A DNA stretch of 35,552 bases from Bdellovibrionales bacterium (GTDB lineage: Bacteria > Bdellovibrionota > UBA1018 > CAIMNF01). The stretch's first letter is position 1. Each line of letters starts with the position of its first letter. The notes under the pieces are model-generated. The model had not been told where the DNA came from. It worked only from the letters and a program-made list of their open reading frames with translations, and made no database searches. Of this stretch, positions 8,571-28,278 are shown piece by piece. Where the stretch lies: contig CANHQK010000021.1 in assembly GCA_947462765.1 (NCBI GenBank), positions 1-35,552 of the forward strand, in the 5' to 3' direction. A program made the position numbers and the translations under genes.

Positions 8571-9362
8571 ATGAAGACATTTTGGCCGGTGGTGGTGTTC
8601 GCGTTCCTGATGGTCCCGGAATCCCACGGGCGTGGATTCGGGGGGCGTGAGGATTTGGTTCAGGTGGCAAACGGGCAAGGGGTTGCGGCACCGAGCTTTC
8701 ATGGCGCGCTTTTCGGGCAAAACCCCGCCGGCCTGGTTCAAAACCAGCGCTTGAAGGTACAAGGGGGCGTTGCAGCACTCGATGATTCCACTACGAATCT
8801 TAAGGCCTCGGGTGCGATTCTGGCCGGGAATGGGACCCTTGGGGCAGGCATCGGCTATTCCCAGTTTGACTCCGGAGCTTACGCGTCAGGAACCGGAGCC
8901 CTCCATTGGGGCGCCGCAGGAACCCTTCAATCCCTATCGACGACCCTTGGCATTTCCGGACGGAGTGTCTCGGGCGGAGCTTCGACCTACGATCTCGGCC
9001 TTTTCTTTGATTTCATCCCCCGGACTCGCATTGCGGCGATGGCCAAGGACGTCGGAAACGGCCTGCACCTGGTCGGGGCCGGTCTCCAGTTCATGGTGGA
9101 TTCCATGGTCGACCTCGTGATCGATGCGGACTACGAGACCCGACTCAAGCAAGGGGTGGTGAAACCCGGATTCTCCCTCCATACGGATCGTGTCCAGTTC
9201 ACCGCTGCTTATGGGTTCCGGTATGTGGGTTCTGCCGATCAGTACTTGTTTTCCCGGATGACCGCCGGGATCGGGATCCGGATCGCCGATTCCATCCTGC
9301 TCCAGTACCAGTACCGGAGTCTGCCTCAGCATCTCGTCGGTTTGACTTTGCGCCTGAACTGA
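8571..9362 (+). CDS. predicted outer-membrane beta-barrel protein (FadL/PorV-like)
   Basis: 263 aa from the ATG at 8571, which follows a GGAGG ribosome-binding site; upstream in-frame ATGs at 8532 and 8541 lack one and would put 10-13 residues before the signal peptide. The signal peptide is MKTFWPVVVFAFLMVPESHG. The mature protein has a GQNPAGL motif near the N-terminus (as in FadL/PorV-type barrels, NPA(G/A)L) followed by alternating polar/hydrophobic beta-strand-like stretches rich in Gly and aromatic residues (GTLGAGIGYSQFDSGAYASG, VQFTAAYGFRYVG, SILLQYQYRSLPQ) to a short strand at the C-terminus (LVGLTLRLN). This fits an outer-membrane barrel with perhaps 10-14 strands. The ligand is unknown. 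The next gene appears to have its own promoter inside the 3' end of this one. Confidence 0.7.
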   Translation: MKTFWPVVVFAFLMVPESHGRGFGGREDLVQVANGQGVAAPSFHGALFGQNPAGLVQNQRLKVQGGVAALDDSTTNLKASGAILAGNGTLGAGIGYSQFDSGAYASGTGALHWGAAGTLQSLSTTLGISGRSVSGGASTYDLGLFFDFIPRTRIAAMAKDVGNGLHLVGAGLQFMVDSMVDLVIDADYETRLKQGVVKPGFSLHTDRVQFTAAYGFRYVGSADQYLFSRMTAGIGIRIADSILLQYQYRSLPQHLVGLTLRLN

Positions 9363-9370
9363 CTTAGCGT
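9342..9370 (+). promoter_or_regulatory. sigma70-type promoter just upstream of the RGG/PRAP gene
   Basis: TTGACT (9342-9347), a 17-bp spacer and TAGCGT (9365-9370) precede the ATG at 9380. The -10 ends 9 bp before the start codon, so the mRNA would have 0-3 nt of leader. No Shine-Dalgarno sequence is visible (GTTTTGGCACT precedes the ATG). Confidence 0.5.
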
Positions 9371-9379
9371 TTTGGCACT

Positions 9380-10102
9380 ATGAAAACCCTGACCGAATTC
9401 TCGGGATTCGTCCTGAAAGATGCCGTTGCCAAGAAAGCCGCCCTCCTTGCCGAAGGAAAAACCGAGGAAGAGGCGCATGCCCAGATTCTCGAGATGCTCA
9501 AGCTCGACGAGGCCAAGGCGGGTTTCTATAAGAACGTGGTCGACATGACCAGTTCGCGGATGGACCGGGTCAAGCGGGTGGTGGTGGCGCTCAAGGCCAC
9601 TGAGACCGAGAAGGTTCCCGAGTCTTACACCGAACGCGAAGGGCACTTTTACTTGATCGAGTATTTTCACAGTGCAGACCAGCGCGGAAGTTCTGATCGT
9701 GCAAGAGACGATGATCGTCGGGGTGGACGCCGCGACGGACGTCGTGAGGGTCGGCGCGATGGCGGAAGAGGACGTGGAGATCAGCGCGAGGGCGGTGGAC
9801 GTCCTCCGCGCGGTGAGCGTCCGGCTCCACGCACCGATGCTGTATTCAAAACAGATGGCGCAGCCAGAGGCGAAGCCAGCGCTCCGCGTCCTGCGCGTGC
9901 TCCCAGACCTCCTCGTGAGCCCAGGGCCCCGCAGGCGCCACGTGCACCTCGTGCACCAAGGGCTCCGCGTGCGCCTCAAGGACCGAAAGGTGCGGGAGAG
10001 CTCCGGTTGGTGTTGAAAGGCCAGTCTGAGACCCGCCTTCAGGGTTCAGCGCCGGCAGAGGCGACTGCCGCTCCGGTCACTTCTGAAGCGCCACAGGCAT
10101 AG
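9380..10102 (+). CDS. small helical protein with RGG-like and Pro-Arg-Ala repeat tail
   Basis: 240 aa. Residues 1 to about 95 form a compact, mostly helical domain (FVLKDAVAKKAALLAEGKTE, then EEAHAQILEMLKLDEAKAGFY) with no family I recognise. The rest is low complexity: an Arg/Gly/Asp-rich block (RRGGRRDGRREGRRDGGRGR), then a run of Ala-Pro-Arg triplets (RAPRAPRAPRAP) and an Ala-rich end. RGG and basic Pro/Ala tails occur in RNA-binding and phase-separating proteins, so nucleic-acid binding is a reasonable inference. There is no signal peptide, so it should be cytoplasmic. A plausible -35/-10 lies directly upstream. The last 26 bp overlap the 3' end of the convergent gene at 10077-10499. Confidence 0.75.
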   Translation: MKTLTEFSGFVLKDAVAKKAALLAEGKTEEEAHAQILEMLKLDEAKAGFYKNVVDMTSSRMDRVKRVVVALKATETEKVPESYTEREGHFYLIEYFHSADQRGSSDRARDDDRRGGRRDGRREGRRDGGRGRGDQREGGGRPPRGERPAPRTDAVFKTDGAARGEASAPRPARAPRPPREPRAPQAPRAPRAPRAPRAPQGPKGAGELRLVLKGQSETRLQGSAPAEATAAPVTSEAPQA

Positions 10103-10499
10103 CATTCAGAGAACCGATCGATTCAGGCTTCGGGAAGGCTTCCATCACGGTCTTGAGATCAGTGGAGTCCGTCCGGTATTCGAAAACGGTACGGGGAAGG
10201 CTCGATTTGCTCTCGAGGCGGACCAGCTCGATTTTCAGGCCGGCTTTTTCAATCTCGGATTCAATGGTTTTCGTGATGATGATGGCATCGGGCGCTTTGC
10301 TAAAGAGGGATTCGTTCGAGGGTGCGTAGCCCATTTTTTTGAGCACCAGGCGCACCAAGCGGCCCTCTTCGTTGCTCAGGTTGTCGAGCAGGTGTACCTT
10401 CAGGGCCGGCGCGGCCGAGGCACTTAGGCTCAACCAGAAGGAGCCAAGGATGCAGACTAAACCGAAGAGCTTGATATTGAGAATTCCGAACCGCTTCAT
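10077..10499 (-). CDS. small exported protein of unknown function
   Basis: 140 aa. A signal peptide (the LFGLVCILGSFWLSLSASAA region) is followed by about 108 mature residues with an alpha/beta pattern (PALKVHLLDNLSNEEGRLVR, DAIIITKTIESEIEKAGLKI). No family is recognised; the segment RLVRLVLKKMGYAPSNE resembles periplasmic ligand-binding folds only superficially. It is monocistronic, reading tail-to-tail into the RGG/PRAP gene with a 26-bp overlap. The upstream 96 bp contain a good sigma54-like promoter match (10512-10527). The CAGGGT before the ATG lies too close to act as a normal ribosome-binding site. Confidence 0.7.
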   Translation of the reverse strand: MKRFGILNIKLFGLVCILGSFWLSLSASAAPALKVHLLDNLSNEEGRLVRLVLKKMGYAPSNESLFSKAPDAIIITKTIESEIEKAGLKIELVRLESKSSLPRTVFEYRTDSTDLKTVMEAFPKPESIGSLNAMPVALQK

Positions 10500-10511
10500 A
10501 CCCTGATCTAA

Positions 10512-10527
10512 AGCGAAAGGTGTGCCA
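10512..10527 (-). promoter_or_regulatory. candidate sigma54 (-24/-12) promoter
   Basis: The minus strand reads TGGCACACCTTTCGCT, against the consensus TGGCAC-R-N4-TTGC-W. The -24 GG and -12 GC are spaced correctly, and one consensus position differs (TTGC is TCGC). Transcription would begin about 2 nt before the ATG at 10499. A match this good could arise by chance about once in a window of this size, so its position right before a start codon is the main support. Confidence 0.35.
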
Positions 10528-10595
10528 GCCCGGGATCGAATCCGGGGGCATTTCGGGAAGTTTCCCTGCCCAGACCGGAGAGGGGTGTCTAAACC

Positions 10596-11558
10596 TTAGA
10601 CAGAGCGCAGGTAAAAGCCCTTGAGGTAGCGAAGTTTCGGGTCCAGGGGCGTCGGAAAGCTCTCGGGCAGATCGACTCGACCCAGACACTGGAGCCGGGT
10701 TCCCGTTTGGCGGGCAGCGGTTTCAACCTCTCCCAGGAAGGCTCTTTCAGAGATGTTTTCCGAATTGATCGAGGTCACCAGAATGCCGTTTTTCGCAAGG
10801 AGAGGCAGGATCAAGGCATGCAAGCGGGCGAGATCCTTCCCGGTCGAAAAGGCACCCGTTTTTGTCCTCGAGAAAGACGGCGGATCGCAAAGAATCGTAT
10901 CGTATTCGAGGCCTTTTTTCTTCAGCCGGGGCAGCCAATCGAACACGTCGCCGTAAATGAAATCTCCCGTCGGTCCTTTGAGCCCCGCTTGCTCCCAATT
11001 CTCCCGCGCCCATTCGATCGTGGGCTTGGAAAGATCGAGTGTGGTCACACTCGATGCGCTACCGGCACCCGCAGCAACAGACAGCGCGCCGGTGTAAGCG
11101 AACAGGTTCAATACTCGCTTGCCTTGCTGTGTCCGGATGAGCCAGCGTCGAAGGGGAGCATGGTCTAAAAAAAGTCCGGGATGCTTGGTGTCTCTCATTT
11201 GGACCAGGTAAGGAATCCCGAATTCCTTCACGATGAACTTGCCTTCGCGAACTTCTCCGTCCAGAACGATGGAGTCGGCTTCGCTGGCCACTTTCGAGCG
11301 GTCCATGAGGACGATTCCCACGCTTCGCAGTGGCAGCTTTTGACGGAGCACTCTGACGACTTCTTTGAGTACGGGATCAGGTACCGGTGCCCATTGGGTG
11401 ATCCAAGCTTGATCTTTGAAAACGTCGATCGCGAGTTGGGACAGAGAGGGATCGGTACTCTCTCCGGGGCCGTAAAACACCCGGAGTGCCTCGCTCTCCT
11501 GGAATGCGCCCAAGGATTCACGAAGTGTGAAGGCGGTGTTCAGCGTGGATTCAAGCAT
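10596..11558 (-). CDS. SAM-dependent rRNA methyltransferase, RlmI/RlmK (PF10672) type
   Basis: 320 aa. The N-terminal part (to about residue 125) is the substrate-binding region of the YccW/RlmI-type family, without a clear PUA domain. The Rossmann methyltransferase domain follows: motif I VLNLFAYTGALSVAAGAG, motif II VTTLDLSKPTIEWAREN, an acidic GDVFDWL, and motif IV CDPPSFSR. These enzymes modify 23S rRNA (m5C1962 by RlmI, m7G2069 by the RlmK part of RlmKL), and the exact base here cannot be told from sequence. Its ATG overlaps the stop of the upstream pseudouridine-synthase gene by 8 bp (ATGCTTGA), so the two RNA-modification genes are translationally coupled. The assignment to the family is firm; the target is not. 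Confidence 0.88.
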   Translation of the reverse strand: MLESTLNTAFTLRESLGAFQESEALRVFYGPGESTDPSLSQLAIDVFKDQAWITQWAPVPDPVLKEVVRVLRQKLPLRSVGIVLMDRSKVASEADSIVLDGEVREGKFIVKEFGIPYLVQMRDTKHPGLFLDHAPLRRWLIRTQQGKRVLNLFAYTGALSVAAGAGSASSVTTLDLSKPTIEWARENWEQAGLKGPTGDFIYGDVFDWLPRLKKKGLEYDTILCDPPSFSRTKTGAFSTGKDLARLHALILPLLAKNGILVTSINSENISERAFLGEVETAARQTGTRLQCLGRVDLPESFPTPLDPKLRYLKGFYLRSV

Positions 11559-12147
11559 GTTTCAAACTCTCCCAAAGTCCTGCGAGGTCCGGCGCCAATG
11601 GAGCCTCGAATCTGCCTACGGGTGTTTCGAGCGAATGAGCATGAAGGCAGACCCGCTCCGAAGGTTTTCCCCCGAATGAACGATCGCCGAGAAGGGGAAA
11701 TCCGGCCTGAGCGGCATGTTCGCGGATTTGGTGAAAGCGACCGGTGAGGGGCGTCGCCTTGCCGAGAAAGTGGGTCGGGGTGGATTCCATCACTTCAAAC
11801 AGCGTTTGCGCCGGCTTCCCCTCCACCGGGGTCCGGATCTGGATTGCCGGGCGCGATGGAGGAGGAGAGGCCAGGAAATGGTAAATTTTTTTGGCCATCC
11901 GATCTTGAAACCAGGCACAACCGGTGCGATGGGCGTCCGGGGTCTTGGCAACGAGCATGACTCCACTGGTGAATCGATCCAGTCGATGGATCATGTACGC
12001 TGAACCCACCGCGCTCTCCCGGAGCCAGAGACTCACCACCCGGTCAGAAGGGGAGGGGTGACGGGCGGGAACACTCAACCACCCCGGAGGCTTGTCGAGG
12101 GCAACAAAGCCCTCGTTTTCAAACAGGATGCGGGGGGTGGTTTCCAT
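11551..12147 (-). CDS. RluA-family pseudouridine synthase
   Basis: 198 aa from the ATG at 12147. The start of the domain reads ILFENEGFVALDKPPGWLSV, followed by the catalytic motif IHRLDRFTSGVMLVAKT (Asp of HRLD is the catalytic residue), then the PLTGRFHQIREHAAQAGFPLLGD block typical of the RluA/RsuA superfamily. It converts uridine to pseudouridine in rRNA or tRNA. At under 200 residues with no S4 domain it resembles the compact TruC/RluA forms; the target is unknown. The frame stays open far upstream, but that extension is antisense to the ZIP gene and is rejected. This start also fits the promoter at 12155-12183. The methyltransferase gene follows with an 8-bp overlap. Confidence 0.88.
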   Translation of the reverse strand: METTPRILFENEGFVALDKPPGWLSVPARHPSPSDRVVSLWLRESAVGSAYMIHRLDRFTSGVMLVAKTPDAHRTGCAWFQDRMAKKIYHFLASPPPSRPAIQIRTPVEGKPAQTLFEVMESTPTHFLGKATPLTGRFHQIREHAAQAGFPLLGDRSFGGKPSERVCLHAHSLETPVGRFEAPLAPDLAGLWESLKHA

Positions 12148-12154
12148 CCGCTCA

Positions 12155-12183
12155 AGCTTATCGTCATTGAGGGGGACCGTCAA
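12155..12183 (-). promoter_or_regulatory. sigma70-type promoter of the pseudouridine-synthase/methyltransferase operon
   Basis: On the minus strand TTGACG (12183-12178), a 17-bp spacer and TAAGCT (12160-12155) are followed after 7 bp by the ATG at 12147. This is close to consensus and predicts a leaderless transcript. It overlaps the opposing ZIP promoter. Confidence 0.6.
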
Positions 12184-12195
12184 ATGGGGTAGGCT
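12167..12195 (+). promoter_or_regulatory. sigma70-type promoter of the ZIP/photolyase operon
   Basis: TTGAGG (12167-12172), a 17-bp spacer and TAGGCT (12190-12195) are followed after 6 bp by the ATG at 12202. Transcription would start at or next to the ATG. The -35 of the divergent promoter (12178-12183) lies inside this spacer, so the two promoters cannot easily be bound at once. Confidence 0.5.
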
Positions 12196-12201
12196 TGGTT
12201 C

Positions 12202-13089
12202 ATGATCCTGCTGCTGGCCTCTCTTGCGATCGCGCTTTCCATGATCCTGCTCGGAATGTGGATCATGGGACGTGCCGGAAGACATGTGAACATGGATCGT
12301 CTTCAAGTGTTCATTGCGATCGCAACGGGATTCATGATGGCAGTGCTGTTTCTGGATCTGCTGCCTGAAAATCTGATGGAATACCCATCGGGTCCCAGGT
12401 CGTTTTTCAATTGGTCCCTTGTCGGAATGGGACTGGTCATCGCCTTCGAGCGGTACGGAGTTCCGAGGCTGAGATTCGTGGAGCGGTTCTTCTCTACAGA
12501 TGATGCGACCCTCGCAAAGATCGAGACCCACGACGGACACGTGCATGAGTCCCACGGGCACCACGAGCACCATGATCTGAAGGAGGCGACCCATTGTGAT
12601 CACTCCCATGAGCACGGACATTTGCATCAGCACACCCACCTCGAGGTCCTCGGTCATGGAGAAGTGTGCTCGGCCATAGCGTGTTTCATGATTTGTGCTT
12701 TTTTCGACGGTGTGGCGCTCTCGTCGGTACAGGCCGTGGATCAGAAACTGGGCATCGTTTTAGTGGTCGGAGTGATTCTGCATCTGCTCCCTGAGGGGGT
12801 TCTCTCGGGGGCCATGGCCCTCGCCGGCGGAGCCAGCATGCGTTCTGCACGCAAGGTCCTGTTTTTCATCGGGGGGGCATTCCTGCTCGGTTCTTTGATC
12901 CCGCAGGTTTTCCGGGGTCTTGAACACACCTTTCTCGCCATTTCGAGCGGGATCCTGATTTTTGTCACCTTGGTTCAACTGCTTCCGACAGCACTCAAAC
13001 TCCGATTCGCTCCGGGATGGATTCTGGCCGGATCGGCGGTGTACTACGGATCCCACGCGATTCTGGCGGCTTTAGGAGTGAATTTCTGA
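12202..13089 (+). CDS. ZIP-family metal transporter with His-rich loop
   Basis: 295 aa with about eight transmembrane segments. After three helices there is a cytoplasmic loop rich in His (HDGHVHESHGHHEHHDLKEA and HCDHSHEHGHLHQHTHLEV), the usual metal-binding loop of ZIP transporters. TM4 reads CFMICAFFDGVALSS and TM5 reads VILHLLPEGVLSGAMALAGG. TM5 keeps the HxxPEG metal-site motif. In TM4 the usual HNFxDG reads CAFFDG: the His is Cys and the Asn is Ala, so the metal site is altered. Substrates are likely divalent zinc, iron or manganese. There is no Shine-Dalgarno sequence; a -10 box ends 6 bp before the ATG. The stop overlaps the start of the photolyase gene (TGATG), so the two are co-translated. 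Confidence 0.88.
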   Translation: MILLLASLAIALSMILLGMWIMGRAGRHVNMDRLQVFIAIATGFMMAVLFLDLLPENLMEYPSGPRSFFNWSLVGMGLVIAFERYGVPRLRFVERFFSTDDATLAKIETHDGHVHESHGHHEHHDLKEATHCDHSHEHGHLHQHTHLEVLGHGEVCSAIACFMICAFFDGVALSSVQAVDQKLGIVLVVGVILHLLPEGVLSGAMALAGGASMRSARKVLFFIGGAFLLGSLIPQVFRGLEHTFLAISSGILIFVTLVQLLPTALKLRFAPGWILAGSAVYYGSHAILAALGVNF

Positions 13090-14483
13090 TGAGCGGTTTC
13101 AAAAGAAGTCTGGTTTGGTTGAGGCGCGACCTTCGACTCTCCGATCATCGGGTTTTATTCGAGGCCTGCGCCTCCTCCGAGGAGGTCGTTCCGGTGTTCC
13201 TGATCGATGAGGACATCCTGGACGGATTGCCGAAGGACAACCGGCAAGTCCACTTTATCCAAGGGTGTCTGGACGAGCTGGATGAGCGACTTCGCGAGAA
13301 AGGCTCGAGACTGGTCGTGATCCGCGGGCGTCCGCGGGAGGCGATTCCCGCTTTGGCGGCACGCCTCGGGGCCGAAGCCGTATTCTTCGGTCACGATTAC
13401 GAACCTGCGGCCAAGAAACGCGATCAAGAAGTCGGCAAAATCCTTTCCAAGCAGGGAGTGCAGGTCCGGGCCTACAAGGACCAGGTGATCTTCGAGTCGA
13501 GAGAGATTCTCGGTGGAAGCGGAGATCCTTACCGCGTGTTCACCCCCTATTCGAAGAATTGGCTCAAAACTCTCGAGTCCGGCATTGAGGGACACTTGAA
13601 GGACTACCGACCCGACTTCAAGAAACTGGTCGCATCCGGAAAAATCGCCGATCGCAATGCCCGCTTTTCGGAGCTCGGATTCGTGGAGAGCTTCCTGTTC
13701 GTGTCGCCCGGTGAAAAGGCTGCGAAGAGTCTGCTCCGCGCTTTTACGAAGAAAATCACCGCTTACCATGAACAACGGGATTTTCCTGCCCTTGAGGGTA
13801 CTTCCGGTCTTTCTCCCCACTTCCGTTTCGGGACGATCTCGCCGAGAGAGGGTGTCCGGTTCGCTCGTGAGCATCTGTCGGCCGGTGCCAAGACCTGGCT
13901 CAATGAGCTGATCTGGCGGGAATTCTATCAGATGATTCTTGATCAGTTTCCGCACGTCGAGAAGGGGGCCTTCAAACCCGAGTACGATCGGCTCAAGTGG
14001 TCTTCGAATCAGGCTCACTTGCGTGCCTGGTGCGAGGGCCGTACCGGTTATCCGATTGTCGATGCGGCCATGAGACAACTGAATCAGACCGGCTTCATGC
14101 ACAATCGCTTGCGGATGGTGGCGGCGATGTTTCTCACCAAGGATCTGCTCATCGACTGGCGAGAGGGGGAGCGGTACTTCGCTTCCCAGCTCCTCGATCA
14201 CGAGCTCGCCGCCAATAACGGAGGGTGGCAGTGGAGTGCCTCGACCGGTTGCGATGCCCAGCCGTATTTTCGAGTCATGAATCCGATTTCACAGAGCGAG
14301 CGCTTTGATTCCGAAGGCGAATTCATCCGGAAGTATGTGCCGGAACTGAAGGGGCTCGATGCCAAGCGAATCCACTGGCCTCACGAGGGAGGGCTCTTCT
14401 CTTCGGCGCCGGCCGGGTACCCCGAGCCGATTGTGGATCACAAGACCCAGCGCTTGAAAGCCATCGCCTTGTTCAAGAAGTGA
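13089..14483 (+). CDS. phrB: deoxyribodipyrimidine photolyase (class I cryptochrome/photolyase family)
   Basis: 464 aa. The N-terminal antenna-binding Rossmann domain begins SLVWLRRDLRLSDHRVL. The C-terminal FAD-binding domain has LSPHFRFGTISPREG, WLNELIWREFYQMIL, the GYPIVDAAMRQLNQTGFMHN motif, and NNGGWQWSASTGCDAQPYFR with MNPISQSERFD, all diagnostic of DNA photolyases of the CPD class I group. It repairs UV-induced pyrimidine dimers using FADH- and blue light. The start is the ATG overlapping the ZIP stop; the frame is open further upstream, but that part is out-of-frame ZIP coding sequence. The tail lies 3 bp from the convergent C15 peptidase gene. Pairing with a metal transporter looks incidental. 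Confidence 0.93.
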   Translation: MSGFKRSLVWLRRDLRLSDHRVLFEACASSEEVVPVFLIDEDILDGLPKDNRQVHFIQGCLDELDERLREKGSRLVVIRGRPREAIPALAARLGAEAVFFGHDYEPAAKKRDQEVGKILSKQGVQVRAYKDQVIFESREILGGSGDPYRVFTPYSKNWLKTLESGIEGHLKDYRPDFKKLVASGKIADRNARFSELGFVESFLFVSPGEKAAKSLLRAFTKKITAYHEQRDFPALEGTSGLSPHFRFGTISPREGVRFAREHLSAGAKTWLNELIWREFYQMILDQFPHVEKGAFKPEYDRLKWSSNQAHLRAWCEGRTGYPIVDAAMRQLNQTGFMHNRLRMVAAMFLTKDLLIDWREGERYFASQLLDHELAANNGGWQWSASTGCDAQPYFRVMNPISQSERFDSEGEFIRKYVPELKGLDAKRIHWPHEGGLFSSAPAGYPEPIVDHKTQRLKAIALFKK

Positions 14484-14486
14484 TCC

Positions 14487-15089
14487 TTACGGGAGTTTCT
14501 TGAATCCGTTCAGGATCACGGCTGCGCACAACTCGGCCGTGAACATTCCGCCCATTCCTGTTCGGGGCACATGCACGAAGCCGAACCAAGGCGCATCGGG
14601 AGCCGACCAGTGACGGGACATCCGCGCGCAAAGGTGATTGCAAATGAAATACCCGGGATTCAGCGAGGTGCGGATCCGGGAAAAAGCCTCGAACGGAAAT
14701 CGCAGGGGGAGCGTATCGTCAGGGCGGAGTTCAGGGAAGATCGGCGATTTCGAACGGATGACTCCCGCATTGTCCGCAAGGTCCGGAACATCATCCAAAT
14801 TGTTCGCGCGCGTTTCGATCTTGAATTCCTCAGCGCCCTCTCCAATCGAGAGCACGCCCTCGATCCGGATTCCCTTTGAAGCCAACTCCGACACCCGGGC
14901 CAGAAGGGATTCTGTACACCGGTCATACTCCACCGGTAAGATGTGAGGATGGATCCGGGTTGAGAGGTCTGTTTCTAGACCGGCGAGGCGGATCACCTCA
15001 TTCAATACCGCTTCGGAATTATTCACGGATCTGCCAGCAAAGGGCTGAAAGGCGGTCAAAAGCCAATGACGCTGGTTTTTGCCGGCCAT
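14487..15089 (-). CDS. pcp: pyroglutamyl-peptidase I-like cysteine peptidase (family C15)
   Basis: 200 aa. The opening LLTAFQPFAGRSVNNSEAVL matches the family's LLTGFEPFGG...N(P/S)S. HILPVEYDR and VLSIGEGAEEFKIETRANNLDD (with the active-region Glu) follow. The catalytic Cys is in GYFICNHL, matching the GxYLCN motif, and the catalytic His in FVHVPRTG. Pcp removes N-terminal pyroglutamate from peptides in the cytoplasm. Divergence in the first motif (A and Q for G and E) makes exact substrate specificity uncertain. The ATG follows the topA stop with no gap (TGAATG), so this is the last gene of a ddl-topA-pcp operon. Confidence 0.82.
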   Translation of the reverse strand: MAGKNQRHWLLTAFQPFAGRSVNNSEAVLNEVIRLAGLETDLSTRIHPHILPVEYDRCTESLLARVSELASKGIRIEGVLSIGEGAEEFKIETRANNLDDVPDLADNAGVIRSKSPIFPELRPDDTLPLRFPFEAFSRIRTSLNPGYFICNHLCARMSRHWSAPDAPWFGFVHVPRTGMGGMFTAELCAAVILNGFKKLP

Positions 15090-17711: not shown

Positions 17712-18845
17712 TCACCTCTTATTCCGGAGTAATGCAAGCTCGATGAGTTTAGTCAAGAGCTCCGTATAAGGGATGCCACTCACTTCGAAGAGTTTGGGGA
17801 ACATCGAGATGCTCGTGAAACCGGGAAGTGTGTTCACTTCGTTCATGTAAAAGGCTCCGGAATCACGATCGAGGAAAAGGTCGACCCGGGCGTAGCCCTC
17901 GAGCTCCAGAGTGACGAAGATTTTCTCTACCATCTGCGTCATCTTTTGGTACTGTTCGGGAGTGATCTCGGCCGGGATCTTGAAAACCGCCCCCGCCTCG
18001 TCGTTGTACTTGGCATCGTAGGTGTAAAATTCGTGAGTCGGAATGATTTCGGCCGGCGTGCTCACGAAAGGTTTCAGCGAGCGGTCGGGGTTCTGGAGAA
18101 CTGAGAATTCGATTTCGCGGGCAGTGATCGCTTTTTCGATCAGGACCTTATTGTCGTAACGGAAGGCCTCTTCCAATTTAGGAAGGAACTCTTCACGCGT
18201 CTTGACCTTGTACACGCCGACTGAAGATCCCTCACGCGCAGCCTTCACAAAGACGGGGAATCCGAATGCGTTTTGGACCTCGTTCCGGAGCAGTTCCCGC
18301 TTCTGGATGGAATCCCAGGATCGCGCCACACGATAGGGTACCACCGGGATGTCCGCATGCTCTGCAAGTCGTTTAGCGACTTCCTTGTCCATTCCGATCG
18401 CGGATCCGATCACTCCGCTTCCGGTATAGGCAACTTCGGCACTCTCGAATAGGCCTTGAAGGGTCCCGTCTTCGCAGTTCTTTCCGTGGAGCATGGGGAT
18501 CAGGACATCGACCATCTCCATCTTCCCCGCATGGGCCACATCCAAGTAGGTGAACACTGCTTTCGGGCGTCCGCGAGAATCCTTGTGAGGGCGTGGAAGG
18601 AGGACGACTTCGGGGGTCATGACTGCTTGCGGAAGGCTGCTTTCGCCGCTTTGCGCAAAGCTTTCCGGGACATTGGCCCAGTGAAAGGTGCCCTGTTTGT
18701 CGATATAAATGGTTCTGGGTTCAAACCTCTTTCGATCCAAGCGCTTGAATACGCTTGCTGCAGAGCGAAGCGAAACCTCGTGTTCGCTACTCCGGCCTCC
18801 ATAGAGGATGCCAACGATGATCTTTTCCCCGGGAACATTCGCCAT
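17712..18845 (-). CDS. ddl: D-alanine--D-alanine ligase
   Basis: 377 aa, of DdlA-like length. Visible motifs: ILYGGRSSEHEVSLRSAASV (N-terminal Ddl motif with the catalytic Glu), MLHGKNCEDGTLQGLFE (usually HGxxGEDG; here one Gly is Cys), PVFVKAAREGSSVGVYKV (ATP-grasp Lys and Ser-rich loop), EIEFSVL, and NEVNTLPGFTSISMFPKL (metal and substrate-binding Asn/Ser). It joins two D-Ala molecules for peptidoglycan precursors, using ATP and Mg2+. It heads the ddl-topA-pcp operon, separated from topA by 6 bp. No Shine-Dalgarno sequence is visible; a -10 box ends 6 bp before the ATG, suggesting a leaderless message. It is divergent from the dehydrogenase gene. Confidence 0.95.
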   Translation of the reverse strand: MANVPGEKIIVGILYGGRSSEHEVSLRSAASVFKRLDRKRFEPRTIYIDKQGTFHWANVPESFAQSGESSLPQAVMTPEVVLLPRPHKDSRGRPKAVFTYLDVAHAGKMEMVDVLIPMLHGKNCEDGTLQGLFESAEVAYTGSGVIGSAIGMDKEVAKRLAEHADIPVVPYRVARSWDSIQKRELLRNEVQNAFGFPVFVKAAREGSSVGVYKVKTREEFLPKLEEAFRYDNKVLIEKAITAREIEFSVLQNPDRSLKPFVSTPAEIIPTHEFYTYDAKYNDEAGAVFKIPAEITPEQYQKMTQMVEKIFVTLELEGYARVDLFLDRDSGAFYMNEVNTLPGFTSISMFPKLFEVSGIPYTELLTKLIELALLRNKR

Positions 18846-18851: not shown

Positions 18852-18881
18852 AGGGTAGCACCTCTGCTAGTGTCATCCCAA
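18852..18881 (-). promoter_or_regulatory. sigma70-type promoter of the ddl operon
   Basis: On the minus strand TTGGGA (18881-18876), an 18-bp spacer and TACCCT (18857-18852, preceded by TGC as an extended -10) are followed after 6 bp by the ddl ATG. The transcript would start at about the A of ATG. Confidence 0.45.
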
Positions 18882-20205: not shown

Positions 20206-20212
20206 GGCGGGG

Positions 20213-21367: not shown

Positions 21368-22113
21368 TCCGAGAAGGTTCCCGTATCAGGCACTTCAACT
21401 CTCAGGGGTTTGAACCTGGATTTTTTCAGAATGAAACCGTCCAGGCGCTCGTGTGGCTCGGGCGTCGGGTAGGTCGGCCCCGGAGAGGGGATGGCTTCGA
21501 ACTCGTGACTCAAGTCTTCATGGACATCGATCGATCCATTGAAGTCTCCTCCGCAAAGATCAGGCGTGAAGTCCCTGATCCGCTCATCGAGTCGCAGAAG
21601 GTGCAGCTTTCGATTCTCCTGAGAGAAAGCCTCAAGGTGTAGGTTGACGATCCTGAGCCCGCCCGTTTCAACCATCTGGAAGTACCGGTGAAGGTACAGC
21701 CGATTGTACCACTCCGGGTTTTCCCGTGGTTTCGGGAGAAGGTCGTTCTGGAGACTCTTGATTGGAAATCGGGATAAGATGCCTCCACCGGAGCGGATCC
21801 TGCCGAAGTGATTCAGGGGATTCCATCCGGGGTAGGGCACCCAGGGAAGATCCCAACTGGTACAGTGTGAGCGGTGGATCAGGCCCGAACGTCGAGCCAG
21901 TGTGTCGAGTTGGTTGCGCCGGAATGAGCGGGAGGAGTCGAAATCCACTTCTTGCAGGAGGGCGATATCAGTACCGGTGTTCCGGATGAGCGTGGCCATG
22001 GCGCTCAGCGTGTTTTCGTAGTGCACGGCCGGATGACGTCGCCACCCCGGAGTGCCTTCCGACCCGTTCCCGTGCGCATATGAGATATTCCAAGTCAGGA
22101 TTTTAAGCCCCAT
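21301..22113 (-). CDS. endonuclease/exonuclease/phosphatase (EEP) family protein
   Basis: 270 aa from the ATG at 22113. EEP-fold motifs appear in order: KILTWNIS at the N-terminus, IALLQEVDFD (metal-binding Glu), SGGGILSRFPI, IVNLHLEAFSQENRKLHLLRL, CGGDFNGS (catalytic DxN), DGFILK, and TFSDHFPVLIEIE (catalytic SDH). Members hydrolyse phosphodiester or phosphomonoester bonds in DNA, sugars-on-lipids or nucleotides; the substrate here cannot be inferred. There is no signal peptide. The frame is open upstream to 22785, but that part is antisense to the beta-lactamase-fold gene and is rejected. The last 22 codons overlap the 3' end of the S1/P1-like gene; the conserved fold ends before the overlap. 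Confidence 0.85.
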   Translation of the reverse strand: MGLKILTWNISYAHGNGSEGTPGWRRHPAVHYENTLSAMATLIRNTGTDIALLQEVDFDSSRSFRRNQLDTLARRSGLIHRSHCTSWDLPWVPYPGWNPLNHFGRIRSGGGILSRFPIKSLQNDLLPKPRENPEWYNRLYLHRYFQMVETGGLRIVNLHLEAFSQENRKLHLLRLDERIRDFTPDLCGGDFNGSIDVHEDLSHEFEAIPSPGPTYPTPEPHERLDGFILKKSRFKPLRVEVPDTGTFSDHFPVLIEIEESSKNRPISPRV

Positions 22114-22128
22114 GATAGTCTTCACAGT

Positions 22129-23022
22129 ATGAGGATCATCGTCGTGGATTGCAAATACGTCGAAAACGAATTCGCCGCGGCGTATCTTCTGGTTGATGGA
22201 GATCGCGGGTTTTTCATCGAATGCAATACGAACCATGCCTTGCCGCATCTGGTTCAGGCGGCCCGGAGTGAGGGGCTTTCTCCGGACCAGATCGAGGGAC
22301 TGCTCATCACCCATGTCCACCTCGACCATGCAGGTGGTGCGGGCCTGTTTTTGAAGACCTTTCCGAATGCCATCCTGTACGCACATCCGAAAGCGGCTCG
22401 CCATGCTATCGATCCTTCCCGATTGGTGGAAAGTGCCACACGTGTTTATGGAGAGGCCTTCATGGATCGTCTGTACGGCACCATTCTTCCCTGTTCGGTC
22501 GAGCGGGTCCGGGAAGTCACGGACGGGGCAAGGGTCCCGTTCGGTCCTGAAGGACTGGAAATCCGTCATGTGCGGGGGCATGCGAACCATCATGTGATCG
22601 CACGCGAGCCGGTCTCGGGGACTGTCTTTACAGGAGACGCCTTCGGAGTGAGCTATCCGGTTGCGAATACCCGCGGGATCGTGGCCATTCCCTCGACCAG
22701 TCCCACCGATTTCGACGGTGAAGAGGCTTTGAAAGCGATCGATATGATTGAGTCGATGCATCCCGAGCGGGTCGCCTTGACCCACTACGGATTCATTGAG
22801 AAGGATCTCATTCCAATTGTAGCGGATCAGCTCCGGACCGGCATTCGGACTTCGATGGAGATCGTGTCGGAGATCCGATCGGGTACTCTTCTCCCAGAGA
22901 GAGTCGAAAGTGAACTGTTCTCAAGGATCGGTGCTGGCATGCGATCTCTGGATCTGGGCACCTTCGGGATTGATCTGAAAGTGAACGCGCAAGGTCTCAT
23001 TCACGCGGCGACCAAGTCCTGA
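22129..23022 (+). CDS. metallo-beta-lactamase-fold hydrolase
   Basis: 297 aa. The metal-binding motif THVHLDHAGG (His62, His64, Asp66, His67) and the later ligands VRGHANHH, TGDAFG and LTHYG are in the expected order for a dinuclear-zinc MBL hydrolase of the glyoxalase II type. The N-terminal VENEFAAAYLLVDGDRGFFI matches the family's 'N.YLI...G..LID' start, here with IECN. The substrate is unknown; thioesters, lactones and nucleotides are all possible in the family. It starts only 15 bp from the divergent EEP start, with TAGTCT (22116-22121) ending 7 bp before the ATG. Its stop abuts the stop of the convergent HD gene. Confidence 0.88.
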   Translation: MRIIVVDCKYVENEFAAAYLLVDGDRGFFIECNTNHALPHLVQAARSEGLSPDQIEGLLITHVHLDHAGGAGLFLKTFPNAILYAHPKAARHAIDPSRLVESATRVYGEAFMDRLYGTILPCSVERVREVTDGARVPFGPEGLEIRHVRGHANHHVIAREPVSGTVFTGDAFGVSYPVANTRGIVAIPSTSPTDFDGEEALKAIDMIESMHPERVALTHYGFIEKDLIPIVADQLRTGIRTSMEIVSEIRSGTLLPERVESELFSRIGAGMRSLDLGTFGIDLKVNAQGLIHAATKS

Positions 23023-24339
23023 TCATTCGAAGAGGAGGGCCTTATCCCTCGCCCGGGTTGAAAGCTTGCGGTGGTCCTCTGGGGATACGAAGATCCTCGA
23101 GATCGAGCGGCTGTTCGGATATTGGGTGAACAGGGTCGTGCACTTTTGAATCGGGATGAAGCTCGGTGCCGAATAAAGGTTGTCGTAACAGACGAAAATC
23201 GGATGATCGGACTTGCCGAAATACTTCGACAGGATTCCGGTCGAAGTGCTTTCGATGAAAGAGAGGTTCTTCGATTCGAGTTCCTGCCGGACTTTTTTCA
23301 GAATCCGTTCTTGCTGTTCCCGCGCGTTCGCGGTCGAGGGAATCCCGCTGTGTGTTTCTACCAGCATCTTATAGGGCTGTTTCTCGGTGATCCGTTTTGC
23401 CCAATGATTCCCCGAGCGGGAAAGGTGTGCGTAGAGGTGGGCATCCGTGCAACGGGCATAGGCTTCGATATCGGCCGGTAGCTTGTAGTCACACTCAGGG
23501 TCGTTCAGATAATTCGCAAGCATCTCATCGTAAACCACGGTTTTATGGTGGAGATACACCTGCATGAACATGTTGAAGCGCGCGAGCAGGAAGTCCTCGA
23601 AGGCATAGAGTGCCCGATGGCGGATGGCCAGATAGAGCTTCCCGTCATGGTGGTGGGCGCAAAGGTTTCTGAGAATCCACGAGTGATCGAACACGCCGTA
23701 GTTCACGCCACTGTAAAAGCTGTCCCGCCGGAGATAGTCCATGCGGTCGGCATCGAGTTCGCTTGAAATCAGTTGATGGAGGATCGGCTTAAAATCGATC
23801 AGTTCGCCATCGAAGGTTTCATGGAAAAAGCCGTCCTCGACCCCGATTTCCGATTCAATGAGTGAGGCGATGTGGATCGGGCTGAAGCCGTGGACCTTGC
23901 CTGCTTTTTCGAGAACCGGGGTCAACGGGGAATCGAGGATGATCTTGAGGGTGTAGTCCTCATGGGTGGCTTTTCGACGGGAGTTTTTAGAGGCGTCGAG
24001 CTTCGAGACCTCGGGCATGGCGAACTCGGTCGTATGAGAGAGTGGGCCGTGGCCGACATCATGAAGGAGTGCTGCGAGTCGGACCACGGCACGGTAACGC
24101 TTCCAGGTTTCGGGAAAGCGACGTTTGAGTCCGTCAAAAATGGCTTCGAATGACTCGGTGGCGGTGTGGAGTGCGCCCACGCTGTGAATGAACCGGTTGT
24201 GGGTGGCGCCGGGGTAAGAGTGCTCGGCGAATCCGGTCTGGCGGATCTGGCGCAGCCTCTGGAACAGAAAGGACTCGAGTACAGGGAGCTCGTGCGGCTC
24301 GATCAGGATCACACCATGGATCACATCCCGAATGTCCAT
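23023..24339 (-). CDS. HD-superfamily phosphohydrolase (SAMHD1/dGTPase-like)
   Basis: 438 aa from the ATG at 24339. HD motifs: MDIRDVIHGVILIEPHELPV at the start, FLFQRLRQIRQTG, HNRFIHSVGALHTA (first metal His), LLHDVGHGPLSHTTEF (HD pair and third His), and SELDADRMDYLRRDSFYSG (final Asp). This is the layout of the YwfO/SAMHD1-like branch, which includes deoxynucleotide triphosphohydrolases; nucleotide hydrolysis is likely, with specificity unknown. The start is chosen because ACAGGGAG lies 7 bp upstream and the family begins with an 'IRDPIHG' motif near residue 3. An ATG eight codons earlier (24363), 3 bp after the histone-like stop, is possible. It is probably the last gene of a tadG/histone-like/HD unit. 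Confidence 0.85.
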   Translation of the reverse strand: MDIRDVIHGVILIEPHELPVLESFLFQRLRQIRQTGFAEHSYPGATHNRFIHSVGALHTATESFEAIFDGLKRRFPETWKRYRAVVRLAALLHDVGHGPLSHTTEFAMPEVSKLDASKNSRRKATHEDYTLKIILDSPLTPVLEKAGKVHGFSPIHIASLIESEIGVEDGFFHETFDGELIDFKPILHQLISSELDADRMDYLRRDSFYSGVNYGVFDHSWILRNLCAHHHDGKLYLAIRHRALYAFEDFLLARFNMFMQVYLHHKTVVYDEMLANYLNDPECDYKLPADIEAYARCTDAHLYAHLSRSGNHWAKRITEKQPYKMLVETHSGIPSTANAREQQERILKKVRQELESKNLSFIESTSTGILSKYFGKSDHPIFVCYDNLYSAPSFIPIQKCTTLFTQYPNSRSISRIFVSPEDHRKLSTRARDKALLFE

Positions 24340-24366
24340 CGCACGGCTCCCTGTCTCGTTCATGAA

Positions 24367-25047
24367 TCAGTCTTCGTCTTCGTCGTTGAAGTCTTCAGAA
24401 TCATCGAGGTCGAACTCTTCTTCCTCTTCATCCTCGAGTTCCTCGTCTTCGTCACCGAAGTCATCTTCTTCGTCTTCGAGATCCTCGTCCATTTCGGACT
24501 CATCTTCTTCCTCGTCATCGAAACTGCGAGAAAAATAATCGTCCTCGTCCATTTCCTCTTCTTCGTCCATCTCCCGGAGAGATTCTTCGTCGTCGATCAG
24601 AGTCTCTTCCATGCCGGAGTCTTCGTCATCGCCGAAGGAGTGTTCCTCGCCTTCGGATTCTTCCATGGCGTGGCTCAAGGTTGCACCTGCGGCAGCGGCG
24701 GCAGCAGTAGCGGCGAGAGCGGTGGCCAGGCTGGTTTTTTGCTCGGTCACTTTAGGAGCGGCGGCCGCTTTTGGAGCGGCTTTTTTAGGAGCGGCCTTCT
24801 TGGCGACCGACTTTGCAGGGGCCGCTTTTTTGGCAGCGACTTTTTTAGCCGGAGCTTTCTTCGCGGTCGTTTTCTTGGCAACGACCTTTTTGGCGGACGC
24901 TTTTTTGGCCGGAGCGACTTTAGCGGCGGCTTTTTTCTTTGCCGGAGCTTTCTTCGCTGCTTTCTTCTTGGCCGGGGCTTTTTTAGCAGCCGTTTTTTTC
25001 GGAGCTGCTTTTTTTGCGGATTTCTTTGTGGTTTTTTTCTTTGCCAT
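24367..25047 (-). CDS. histone H1-like protein with a basic N-half and strongly acidic C-half
   Basis: 226 aa. Residues 1 to about 104 are built almost only of Lys, Ala and Pro ([19 protein letters not shown]), like eukaryotic H1 tails and bacterial HctB/AlgP-type DNA-binding proteins. A hydrophobic Ala-rich stretch ([19 protein letters not shown]) separates this from residues 127-226, which are mostly Asp, Glu and Ser ([20 protein letters not shown]). The protein is thus a charge-separated polyampholyte. The basic half probably binds DNA; the acidic half could mask it or bind a basic partner. The start at 25047 is supported by AAGGAGA five bases upstream. Long ORFs on the opposite strand are by-products of the AAG/GAA/GCC-rich sequence. 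It lies 64 bp after the tadG-like gene, probably in one unit. Confidence 0.85.
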
Positions 25048-25111
25048 GGTGTTCTCCTTCATGGTGAAGGTGCCAAAGGGGGTCCGAATTGGCAAGTCTG
25101 AAGCACTCTAA

Positions 25112-27205
25112 TCAATGAGACATTTTTTCCACGTCCTCGTCGTCGGCTGAGAGGCCTTGTCGCATCAGGTCACGGAAGGAAACCAGTTTGACCGAGTAGC
25201 CGAATCGAGGAGTGAAGCGCACATCATAGGCGCTCACCTTGTGGTGATCCGGGCTCCAGGAGGTTCTGACTTCCTTTGAAGTGATGGAGAGGTAGGGCTT
25301 GGACTGGAGGGGGGGTTGAATAGGAAGCTCCAGGGCTGCAAAGGTCTCGGTTTCTCCGTGCTCGCTCGCGCTCCCCCCGCTAGAGAGGGCGCTTCCCCCG
25401 ATGTAGTTGGTGAGCGAAGTTTTGAGCTTGTCACGCAGGCTCGAAAGGTCCAGGCCGATCGGATCGGTACTGACCGAAACGCTCGGGAAGATGGATTGGA
25501 GGAATTGGTCCACTTTCTGGGCTACTGAGGCGCCGCCTTGCGGAAAGACGGGGGCGTAAAAGCGGTAAACCTGAGGCTTGCCCGTGACTGACTTGGGATC
25601 CGAGAAGGGAATGAATTCGAAGTCCATCGGGTTCGAGCCACCATCGGCGCTGGGAGCTGGCGGGATGATGTTGAAGAGCCCCACTTCGGTCGGATTGGGA
25701 GCCAGGGCGTGACGCTGCGCGTCCAGGATGGCCGAAATGCTGGGCGAGGTGCCTCCCGCCAAGGTGTGCATGTCCCTGATGAATTTCATGCTGAAGAAGC
25801 TGATGCCGTTTCCGAGTGAGAGGTTCGGGCTCTTGCAATCGGATGAACAAAAGACTGTATTGTTGACGGCTGGCAGGTCTGATTTGGTTACAACAAAGTC
25901 GGCGGCCGAGAGATTTTTGGGTCCGATCCTGCTCCCGAAAGGTTTGGCTGCGGCCATCGCATCGAGTTCGAGCTCCCCCGAACCTTGCATGAACAGGAGT
26001 CCCCTCGGTTTCACGAAGGTCCTGAGTCGTACGGCATAGAAAACATTCTTACCCCCGCCCGAAGAAAGCTTCACTCCGACCGGAGCATCGTTGGCGTTGA
26101 TTTTGTAGATGAAGGAGTCGCAGGCGGTTGGATTACTGCTGGAAATTGAACTTCCCGCTGGTTTCGGGATCATGGCTTGTACAAAAACCTTGAAGGATGC
26201 CTTGACCTCCTCGAGTTCCAGCATTTTGGCAGGTTGGAGTTCTTCGAGGCGTGTTTTCTCGGCATCGAAGACCGAACTGTTCAAATTTCCAAGAGCCGAC
26301 CGGTAAGCCAGAATGGTCCGCTCGTGGGCGTCAGTCCCCTGGGCGTTCTCGAGGGCCTTCATTCCATCCCAATCGATATTCGCCGGTTTTTCGTTGATGA
26401 AGTCTTTCAGTGTCTCGATCCTCATCAGATTGATCACGTTTCTCGGAAATAGCCCCAAGCCTTGAATCAAGTTTTTGATCTGATCCTTGATCTTGGCTCT
26501 TTCGGTATTGGTCAGCGTGCTTGCGGTGACGGACTGGAGCATTTGATCGATGCTCGAATCATCGAGATCCCCCCTGAAAAGCCAGGCGAGCGCCGCGAAA
26601 ACATTCACTCCGGATCGCCCCGAACAGATGTCGTTCGCAATGCCTGAAATGCTGGTCACGGAGTTCAAGTAGGCTTGGGTGATCGAGTTGAGGGAGGCGA
26701 GGACACCTCCCACGGCATTCTGAACGTCGTAGGCGGTATTCCGGTAGTTCACGGCCAGGCAGCTGTCCGAGCTCATTTCTGTCGCAGCCGAAATCGGCAG
26801 GCAAACCACCGGGACTTTCAGGGGAAGGACTGTCGCAGTCGAACCGAGCGAGTAGTCGAGCTTCTTGAAGTCGTAATCTGCCGTGTCAGCACCGGCTCCG
26901 GGAAATTGCGCGTTTCCCATGCTGCTCACAAATGCGTAACGGAACACGAATTTCTTGAACTGCCGTCTCATGTCGTAATTCAAGTACGAGATTGCGTTCA
27001 GTTGGCGCGCCTGGGCGGCTGCGCCTGCGTATGCTGCGGCATCCGCGGCGGTTTGCACGCTGATCTTGGCATTGATCAGAAGCCCCGTGTTCACAGCGAA
27101 CATGAAGAACATCAGGAAGCTCGAAACCATGATTGCGAGCAGGATCGCGGCCTGTCCGTCTCGACTGGATTTGTCATTTAATTGGCGAGGACCAGGCGAT
27201 TGCAT
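25112..27205 (-). CDS. TadG-like Flp-pilus-associated protein
   Basis: 697 aa from the ATG at 27205. Near the N-terminus RDGQAAILLAIMVSSFLMFF leads into one membrane helix and then INAKISVQTAADAAAYAGAA, the signature of the TadE/TadG-like group. Such pilin-like or VWA-containing proteins are secreted through Tad systems and anchor Flp pili or the assembly platform. No VWA MIDAS motif is apparent in the rest, which is Ser/Ala/Leu-rich with no recognised domain. No minor pilins, TadB/C or RcpA are in the window, though a Tad ATPase gene lies about 5 kb away. An in-frame GTG six bases upstream (27211) is possible, but the ATG fits the promoter, whose -10 ends 6 bp before it. The histone-like and HD genes follow. 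Confidence 0.8.
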   Translation of the reverse strand: MQSPGPRQLNDKSSRDGQAAILLAIMVSSFLMFFMFAVNTGLLINAKISVQTAADAAAYAGAAAQARQLNAISYLNYDMRRQFKKFVFRYAFVSSMGNAQFPGAGADTADYDFKKLDYSLGSTATVLPLKVPVVCLPISAATEMSSDSCLAVNYRNTAYDVQNAVGGVLASLNSITQAYLNSVTSISGIANDICSGRSGVNVFAALAWLFRGDLDDSSIDQMLQSVTASTLTNTERAKIKDQIKNLIQGLGLFPRNVINLMRIETLKDFINEKPANIDWDGMKALENAQGTDAHERTILAYRSALGNLNSSVFDAEKTRLEELQPAKMLELEEVKASFKVFVQAMIPKPAGSSISSSNPTACDSFIYKINANDAPVGVKLSSGGGKNVFYAVRLRTFVKPRGLLFMQGSGELELDAMAAAKPFGSRIGPKNLSAADFVVTKSDLPAVNNTVFCSSDCKSPNLSLGNGISFFSMKFIRDMHTLAGGTSPSISAILDAQRHALAPNPTEVGLFNIIPPAPSADGGSNPMDFEFIPFSDPKSVTGKPQVYRFYAPVFPQGGASVAQKVDQFLQSIFPSVSVSTDPIGLDLSSLRDKLKTSLTNYIGGSALSSGGSASEHGETETFAALELPIQPPLQSKPYLSITSKEVRTSWSPDHHKVSAYDVRFTPRFGYSVKLVSFRDLMRQGLSADDEDVEKMSH

Positions 27206-27211
27206 GGGCAC

Positions 27212-27240
27212 AGGCTAACCCTTTGGAGTTCCAAAATCAA
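27212..27240 (-). promoter_or_regulatory. sigma70-type promoter of the tadG-like unit
   Basis: On the minus strand TTGATT (27240-27235), a 17-bp spacer and TAGCCT (27217-27212) are followed after 6 bp by the ATG at 27205. No Shine-Dalgarno sequence is present, so a leaderless transcript is predicted. Confidence 0.6.
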
Positions 27241-27241
27241 T

Positions 27242-27270
27242 TCGACGGAAAGCCCGGGCTCGGATAAACA
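27242..27270 (+). promoter_or_regulatory. sigma70-type promoter of the BMP/nucleoside ABC operon
   Basis: TCGACG (27242-27247), a 17-bp spacer and TAAACA (27265-27270) are followed after 6 bp by the ATG at 27277. The -35 lies 1 bp from the opposing -35 (27235-27240), so both polymerases would bind back to back. No Shine-Dalgarno sequence precedes the ATG (CATAAAGT). Confidence 0.5.
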
Positions 27271-27276
27271 TAAAGT

Positions 27277-28278
27277 ATGAGAAACATTCTGCGCCCCCTA
27301 GGTTTCGTGCTGCTCTCGGCCCTGGCTGTTCTGTCTGTTCCGGCCGCTTCCGCGCAGATCCGGGTCGGTCTGGTCCTCGAGCGCTCCGGCAAGGACGACA
27401 AGTCGTTCAACGCTTCGGCCTACCAGGGGCTCAAACGTGCCGAGAAAGAACTCGGTGTGATGACCAAGACCGTCGAGGCTCCGGACAATGCCGCTTATGA
27501 GTCCCTTCAGCGGGCCTTTGCCGAGAAAAAGTTCGATCTGATCATTGCGGTTGGCTTCCACCAACTCGAGTCAGTCAAGAAGAATGCGGCAAGATTCCCG
27601 GGCCAGAAGTTCCTCCTGGTCGATGAAGATGCCAAAGCTCCGAATGTCCGCTCGGTCATGTTCGAGGAGCACGAGGGAAGTTACCTGGTAGGGGCTCTGG
27701 CAGCCTTGCATGCTCCGGGAGGCAAAGTCGGCTTCATCGGCGGAATGGACGTACCGTTGATCCGCCGTTTCGAAACAGGCTACGCGGCCGGCGCGAAAAA
27801 GATCAACCCCAAGATGCAAGTGCTCTCGAACTACCTCGGTGTCACTGGGGAAGCCTGGAACAATCCGCCCAAGGCCAAGGAGCTGGCTCTCGATCAGTTC
27901 AATCGCGGAGCCGAGGTGATTTTCGTGGCTGCCGGGAACTCAGGAGTGGGCGTGTTCGATGCCGCTGCCGAAAGAAAGAAGCTCGCAATCGGGGTGGACT
28001 CGAATCAGAACTGGCTCAAGCCCGGGTTCATTCTGACCAGTATGCTGAAGCGGGTGGATGAGGCGGTCTTTGATTCCGTGAAGCTCTACAAAGAGGGGAA
28101 ATTCAGCACCGGACTGATCCGTTACGGAGTGAAGTCCAAAGGTGTGGATTACTCGCTCGACGAGCACAATGCAAGATTGGTATCCGAGACCGACAAAAAG
28201 CAGTTGGAACAGCTTCGTACGGAGATCGTGAAGGGAAAGATCAAGGTTCCGGACTATTACCTGATCCAGAAAAAGTGA
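27277..28278 (+). CDS. BMP-family substrate-binding protein of a nucleoside-type ABC transporter
   Basis: 333 aa. The signal peptide ends PAASAQ, so it is a free periplasmic protein and not a lipoprotein as in Gram-positive or spirochaete relatives. IRVGLVLERSGKDDKSFNAS opens the BMP fold (the family's 'G.v.DkSFN.sa..G'), followed by FDLIIAVGFHQLESV, KVGFIGGMDVPLIRRFETGY, AEVIFVAAGNSGVGVFDAA, and AIGVDSNQN. BMP proteins bind purine nucleosides for uptake. It heads a five-gene operon: its stop overlaps the ATPase start (TGATG), with two permeases and a lipoprotein after that. The gene order SBP-ATPase-permease-permease matches known nucleoside uptake operons. Confidence 0.92.
   Translation: MRNILRPLGFVLLSALAVLSVPAASAQIRVGLVLERSGKDDKSFNASAYQGLKRAEKELGVMTKTVEAPDNAAYESLQRAFAEKKFDLIIAVGFHQLESVKKNAARFPGQKFLLVDEDAKAPNVRSVMFEEHEGSYLVGALAALHAPGGKVGFIGGMDVPLIRRFETGYAAGAKKINPKMQVLSNYLGVTGEAWNNPPKAKELALDQFNRGAEVIFVAAGNSGVGVFDAAAERKKLAIGVDSNQNWLKPGFILTSMLKRVDEAVFDSVKLYKEGKFSTGLIRYGVKSKGVDYSLDEHNARLVSETDKKQLEQLRTEIVKGKIKVPDYYLIQKK

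Follow-up and report, generated by a model that had tools for sequence, protein, structure and literature searches.

The 35,552-nt contig CANHQK010000021.1 (hereafter the window), contig 21 of the metagenome-assembled genome (MAG) GCA_947462765.1 from a Bdellovibrionales bacterium, contains six genes whose -10 boxes end 6–9 bp before the ATG. These genes are very probably served by sigma-70-type promoters that abut the open reading frame (ORF), with the transcript starting on the A of the ATG or within ~3 nt of it. The arrangement recurs throughout the genome at a fixed distance from the start codon, where it is tied to the heads of transcription units, linked to a -35 element and conserved in orthologues. 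The elements and genes in the window are as follows (genes are named by start codon position and strand).

9342–9347, plus strand: -35-like TTGACT of 9380+, in the final codons of the gene upstream; seen in several orthologues, where the codons constrain it too
9365–9370, plus strand: -10 box TAGCGT of 9380+, 9 bp before the ATG at 9380; spacer 17 bp
9380–10102, plus strand: candidate leaderless or near-leaderless gene, no Pfam match
11551–12147, minus strand: candidate leaderless gene for an RNA pseudouridine synthase (PF00849)
12155–12160, minus strand: -10 box TAAGCT of 12147-, 7 bp before the ATG; spacer 17 bp
12178–12183, minus strand: -35 TTGACG of 12147-, within the spacer of the 12202+ promoter
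12167–12172, plus strand: -35 TTGAGG of 12202+, within the spacer of the 12147- promoter
12190–12195, plus strand: -10 box TAGGCT of 12202+, 6 bp before the ATG at 12202; spacer 17 bp
12202–13089, plus strand: candidate leaderless gene for a ZIP zinc transporter (PF02535)
17712–18845, minus strand: D-Ala-D-Ala ligase (Ddl) gene (PF01820, PF07478), candidate leaderless
18852–18857, minus strand: extended -10 box TGC-TACCCT of 18845-, 6 bp before the ATG at 18845; spacer 18 bp
18876–18881, minus strand: -35-like TTGGGA of 18845-
25112–27205, minus strand: candidate leaderless gene for a protein with a Tad (TadE/G-like) domain (PF13400); the ATG at 27205 is taken as its start in preference to the GTG at 27211
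27212–27217, minus strand: -10 box TAGCCT of 27205-, 6 bp before the ATG at 27205; spacer 17 bp
27235–27240, minus strand: -35 TTGATT of 27205-; TTGATTTT is kept in five orthologues (L130–L134)
27242–27247, plus strand: -35-like TCGACG of 27277+ (weak)
27265–27270, plus strand: -10-like TAAACA of 27277+ (weak box), 6 bp before the ATG at 27277; spacer 17 bp
27277–28278, plus strand: BMP/PnrA-like substrate-binding protein gene (PF02608), candidate leaderless

The initial annotation had described six -35/-10 pairs with spacers of 17–18 bp, and all of them were found in place. On a fixed promoter score, whose weights were chosen manually with the motif already known, the promoters of 9380+, 12147-, 12202+, 18845- and 27205- reach 7.4, 7.8, 6.5, 6.4 and 6.5, respectively; among random ATG codons (n = 3658), 0.25% reach a score of 6 and 3% a score of 3. 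The promoter of 27277+ scores 3.5 at 6 bp and 4.0 at 5 bp, since its box lacks the final T. The annotation had further held that none of the six genes has a Shine-Dalgarno (SD) sequence. Judged by matches to a list of eight SD strings (positions -18 to -3), this is true of five; at 18845-, AGGTG ends 13 nt before the ATG, ahead of the point where the transcript is proposed to begin, and some orthologues lack it. The seven genes to which it had assigned SD sequences all match the list, and their promoter scores do not exceed 2.5. That all six genes head their units is not certain for 9380+, because the stop codon of a same-strand gene (ending at 9362) lies 17 bp before it and its -35 element falls inside the last codons of that gene. 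Two further genes in the window deserve mention. A metallo-beta-lactamase-superfamily gene (22129–23022, plus strand) is a seventh candidate, with TAGTCT ending 7 bp before the ATG and a score of 3.9. At 8456 on the minus strand, TATACT ends 11 bp before the ATG and the printed sequence upstream shows no SD; a leader of ~5 nt would follow.

In order to see how the box is distributed over the source MAG (2.33 Mb in 97 contigs, 91% complete), we used a sample of 684 genes from the window and a further 800 kb of the genome (0.84 Mb in all). Genes were called from coding content alone, leaving upstream signals unused, and the background was the frequency of the same pattern at other (decoy) offsets. 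Some starts called in this way are wrong (27205- was called at 27130, and 12147- was missed), so the counts from the sample are probably lower bounds. TANNNT ends 6–8 bp before the start in 49 of 218 divergent genes, two of the 49 being contributed by the window; other offsets average 8.0 and never exceed 12. The corresponding figures are 11 of 133 for same-strand genes at least 60 bp from their neighbour (mean 3.5, maximum 6) and 11 of 206 for those at 10 bp or less (mean 1.7, maximum 4). The distance is narrowly distributed: 26 of the 49 boxes lie at 6 bp, 15 at 7 bp and 8 at 8 bp, and beyond these the sample holds five genes at 9 bp and four at 10 bp. Scores of at least 4 are reached by 57 of 218 divergent genes (6.4 at decoy offsets), 21 of 108 same-strand genes 11–59 bp behind their neighbour (1.7), 13 of 133 at 60 bp or more (2.8), 5 of 71 at 0–10 bp (0.4) and 3 of 135 overlapping genes (0.6). 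The excess at cut-offs 3–4 amounts to 23–27% of divergent and 1–2% of overlapping genes, or to 26–27% and 1–3% at cut-offs 3 and 4 when alternative starts are allowed; summed over the five position classes at score 4, it comes to ~87 of 665 genes (13%). The TANNNT peak that the initial annotation anticipated upstream of first genes is thus present at 6–8 bp in divergent genes and nearly absent in overlapping ones. Its broader proposal, that the signature marks unit heads, describes an excess of about a quarter among divergent genes; heads are mixed, and SD strings are found in 41 of the 169 divergent genes without the box. In close same-strand genes, SD strings peak at 5–9 bp. The distance peak also appears when no gene calls are used: the pattern TTG-spacer-TANNNT-d-ATG occurs 27 times at d = 6 and 16 times at d = 7, and 2–12 times at other values of d between 2 and 25.

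The box belongs to a promoter, as it is linked to a -35 element and to an extended -10. Neither feature was used in choosing the 49 genes. The hexamer 17 bp upstream of their boxes reads T (0.67), G/T, G (0.51), A (0.43) and C (0.37), and the base two positions before the box is G (TGn) in 0.63 of them. At least four of six matches to TTGACA were found at spacer 17 in 13 of the 49 genes, the highest count for any spacer between 10 and 25; control boxes located further upstream likewise peak at spacer 17 (13 of 99).

Orthologues of the six genes were collected from up to 12 related genomes, and a start was accepted at any in-frame ATG, GTG or TTG close to the aligned one, for decoy offsets as well. 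Of the 60 orthologues, 47 had a box 6–9 bp before an in-frame start; decoy offsets gave 8.1. Conservation is strictest for Ddl, in which the box stands at exactly 6 bp in all eight scored orthologues (two more were read by eye) and the distance remains 6 bp even in two orthologues that start five codons further in. For the ZIP transporter the box is at 6–7 bp in 9 of 10 orthologues, for 9380+ TANNNT lies at 7–9 bp in 10 of 12, for the Tad gene the box is at 6–7 bp in 6 of 10 (one before TTG) and for the pseudouridine synthase at 7–9 bp in 4 of 10. The wider TANNNA/T of the BMP gene is found at 6–8 bp in all 10 orthologues (one before TTG), against 3.3 at decoys. A Ddl orthologue from another family of the order (L099) was seen by eye to have AGGAGG 9 nt before the ATG and no abutting -10 box; set beside the Ddl genes of the genus, it points to a switch between leaderless-type and SD-led starts.

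From these features we infer where transcription begins and how the mRNA is translated. A housekeeping promoter of the form TTGac-17 bp-(TGn)TANNNT would be set against the ORF, and RNA polymerase would start on the A of the ATG or 1–3 nt before it. The mRNA would be leaderless or nearly so, its 5'-terminal AUG being recognised by ribosomes without SD pairing. About a quarter of divergent genes would use this mode, and SD-led initiation would serve inside operons and at the other heads. The 16S rRNA gene, from which the anti-SD sequence would be read, was not found in the MAG by a search that was positive for 9 of 14 control genomes.

Several observations weigh against this interpretation. Two of the six promoters are less typical: the box of 27277+ is weak, and that of 9380+ lies at 9 bp before a gene which may be co-transcribed with the preceding one. 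Among the pseudouridine synthase orthologues, two more have the box 10 bp away and the rest have no TANNNT there, and the genomes behind the count of 47 in 60 are not independent of one another. SD strings occur in 3 of the 49 boxed divergent genes compared with 41 of the 169 others (14 when a shifted stretch serves as background), a depletion that is partly mechanical, the box taking up some of the space in which an SD could match. A generic sigma-70 scan (at least four of six matches to TATAAT, 9 of 12 in all) recovered none of the six promoters, their boxes being TANNNT rather than TATAAT; it returned 3 sites in 18.8 kb where 5.2 were expected. Finally, a free-motif mixture model of the leaderless fraction was left unused, as it overfitted, with decoys reaching high likelihood and the 'no motif' class emptying.

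The usual spacing between the -10 box and the transcript start places the latter on or next to the A of the ATG when the box is 6–7 bp away. Promoters starting 2–10 nt upstream would instead give a very short, SD-less leader, and the genes would not be leaderless in the strict sense. The 9-bp distance of 9380+ and the sample genes at 8, 9 and 10 bp would suit a leader of 1–4 nt, and the gene at 8456 on the minus strand is of the same kind; for 9380+ itself, a leader of 0–3 nt is more likely than none at all. As a general account, however, a short leader is unlikely, because the boxes cluster sharply at 6 and 7 bp and every scored Ddl orthologue has its box at exactly 6 bp. The signal might also act in translation, for example as an AT-rich site for ribosomal protein S1. 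The gene for S1 is present in this genome, and according to a Nakagawa-type analysis (PMC5397173) an AT-rich bias at about -20 to -10 is possibly S1-related. However, the signal is found at unit heads and hardly at all in overlapping operon genes, and it is accompanied by a -35 element and TGn, for which an S1 site would have no use; we regard this explanation as very improbable. It is extremely unlikely that the start codons are wrong and that the true starts, with SD sequences and leaders of normal length, lie downstream. Although calling by coding content did misplace 27205- and miss 12147-, orthologues keep start and box together even where Ddl or BMP begins codons earlier or later, and the peak at 6–7 bp persists when gene calls are dispensed with.

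The start codons of 12147- and 12202+ are separated by 54 bp (12148–12201) and each -35 lies within the spacer of the opposite promoter; presumably, therefore, only one of the two is occupied at a time. Several relatives have a comparably short interval. In the pair 27205-/27277+, the two -35 elements stand back to back, 1 bp apart. Three divergent pairs in the window involve genes of the six; their start codons are separated by only 54, 67 and 71 bp, distances that would suit genes without need of a leader. A special coupling of divergent genes with two leaderless promoters was also considered and dropped: 17 of 109 pairs were found where 15.8 are expected. Neither window pair is among the 17, because 12147- was uncalled and the start of 27205- miscalled.

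The Ddl protein of the window is 94% identical to a protein of JAIXWV01 ('Proteobacteria bacterium' D4_MAG_00031), 95% identical over residues 1–232 to one from a MAG titled 'Bdellovibrio sp. ZAP7' and 89% identical to one of 'Oligoflexia bacterium' (Umea_bin-07902); the next, including that of Bdellovibrionales bacterium GWB1_55_8, are at ~52%. Stretches of two genomes (G002 and G012) contain 48 and 20 divergent genes, of which 6 and 1 have TANNNT at 6–8 bp (1.3 and 0.8 expected), numbers too small to rank lineages. Therefore, the pattern TTGA-spacer-TANNNT-ATG was counted in whole genomes, comparing distances of 6–7 bp with 13–14 bp. The source genome has 42 against 10. Across 11 genomes of the genus, including this one and omitting G004, which a completeness filter excluded, the counts are 722 against 351, with all 11 in favour. 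In 32 other genomes of the family and order they are 1497 against 778 (27 of 28 in favour, as well as four added genomes), and in other families of the class 138 against 116, with only one of three genomes in favour. For the rest of the phylum, we took mechanically every fourth handle from G040 to G288, minus three of the class or order; these 60 genomes give 4507 against 3780 (ratio 1.19, median 1.26; 45 of 60 in favour), families f13 and f15 standing at 1.61 and 1.08. A first phylum set (35 genomes, ratio 1.55) was set aside, as it had been picked by hand with the signal counts in view. The strong excess thus belongs to the genus and the order; over the whole phylum it is small.

Outside or titled genomes were represented by 22 of the 47 loci of a Ddl search, chosen before the counts were seen. 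Four belong to this order (43/11, 50/17, 38/8 and 46/10). The excess is also present in three Myxococcota (32/5, 32/9 and 14/4) and is most significant, among the 18 genomes outside the order, in a MAG labelled Treponema denticola (G302, L039; 75/12). Other counts are 40/19 and 46/21 for Elusimicrobia, 13/2 for Kaiserbacteria, 39/22 for Spirochaetaceae, 13/8 for a delta-proteobacterium and 31/26 for one further genome. The negative controls, five Firmicutes (122/128, 121/144, 142/136, 76/92 and 90/98) and three Bacteroidota (88/100, 27/34 and 20/36), show no excess. Genomes with a high background, presumably AT-rich ones, dilute the ratio. It is about evenly balanced whether leaderless expression is the standard, inherited mode of unit heads throughout the order (and in Myxococcota), serving at least a quarter of divergent heads. 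If so, these Bdellovibrionota-like bacteria would join Actinobacteria and Deinococcus-Thermus as a group leaning heavily on this mode.

Gene finders that expect an SD sequence can misplace the starts of such genes. Should 5'-end mapping confirm the proposed starts, this Gram-negative group related to predatory bacteria would offer a comparison for how SD-led and leaderless expression coexist, and for how the two replace each other between orthologues, as with the box of Ddl and the SD of L099. Elsewhere in the window, two neighbouring lipoprotein-like genes (1578–7230, plus strand) have similar N-terminal parts, and the second carries a long series of repeats, which we take to be NHL-like.

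In 2011 Bdellovibrio was counted among the delta-proteobacteria. The survey of Zheng et al. 2011 (PMC3160421) puts the mean share of leaderless genes at 15.8% for 8 of 33 delta-proteobacterial genomes; its main text does not specify which delta-proteobacteria these were and does not name Bdellovibrio. Widespread leaderless expression, which the initial annotation had considered notable for such a Gram-negative lineage, is therefore not unheard of. In B. bacteriovorus, 140 attack-phase promoters have been mapped (Karunker et al. 2013, PMC3627812), and the main text of that article does not use the word 'leaderless'. Literature searches on leaderless genes in Bdellovibrio and Bdellovibrionota brought up no paper on the subject for this lineage, judged by titles and the beginnings of abstracts. 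The pattern is real and of known kind and size, and the papers found in these searches do not describe it for this lineage; what is added here is a gene-level case in one MAG, together with pattern counts for the order, the rest of the phylum, Myxococcota and controls.

The genes described here resemble the TA-led genes of Zheng 2011, in which a TA-like box ~10 bp before the start is the promoter of a leaderless gene, and the ~13% of this genome is similar in size to the delta-proteobacterial mean. In Zhong et al. 2025 (PMC12340547), the -10-motif of Deinococcus-Thermus, TANNNT next to the ORF, is a true -10 element that is enhanced by adding a -35 and is also met in a scan across the bacterial domain. 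That motif was tested by experiment, whereas ours is read from sequence, with the -35 visible in averaged sequences. Leaderless genes are likewise a regular class in Mycobacterium tuberculosis, a member of another phylum, in which the start sites were reportedly mapped (PMC3898074).

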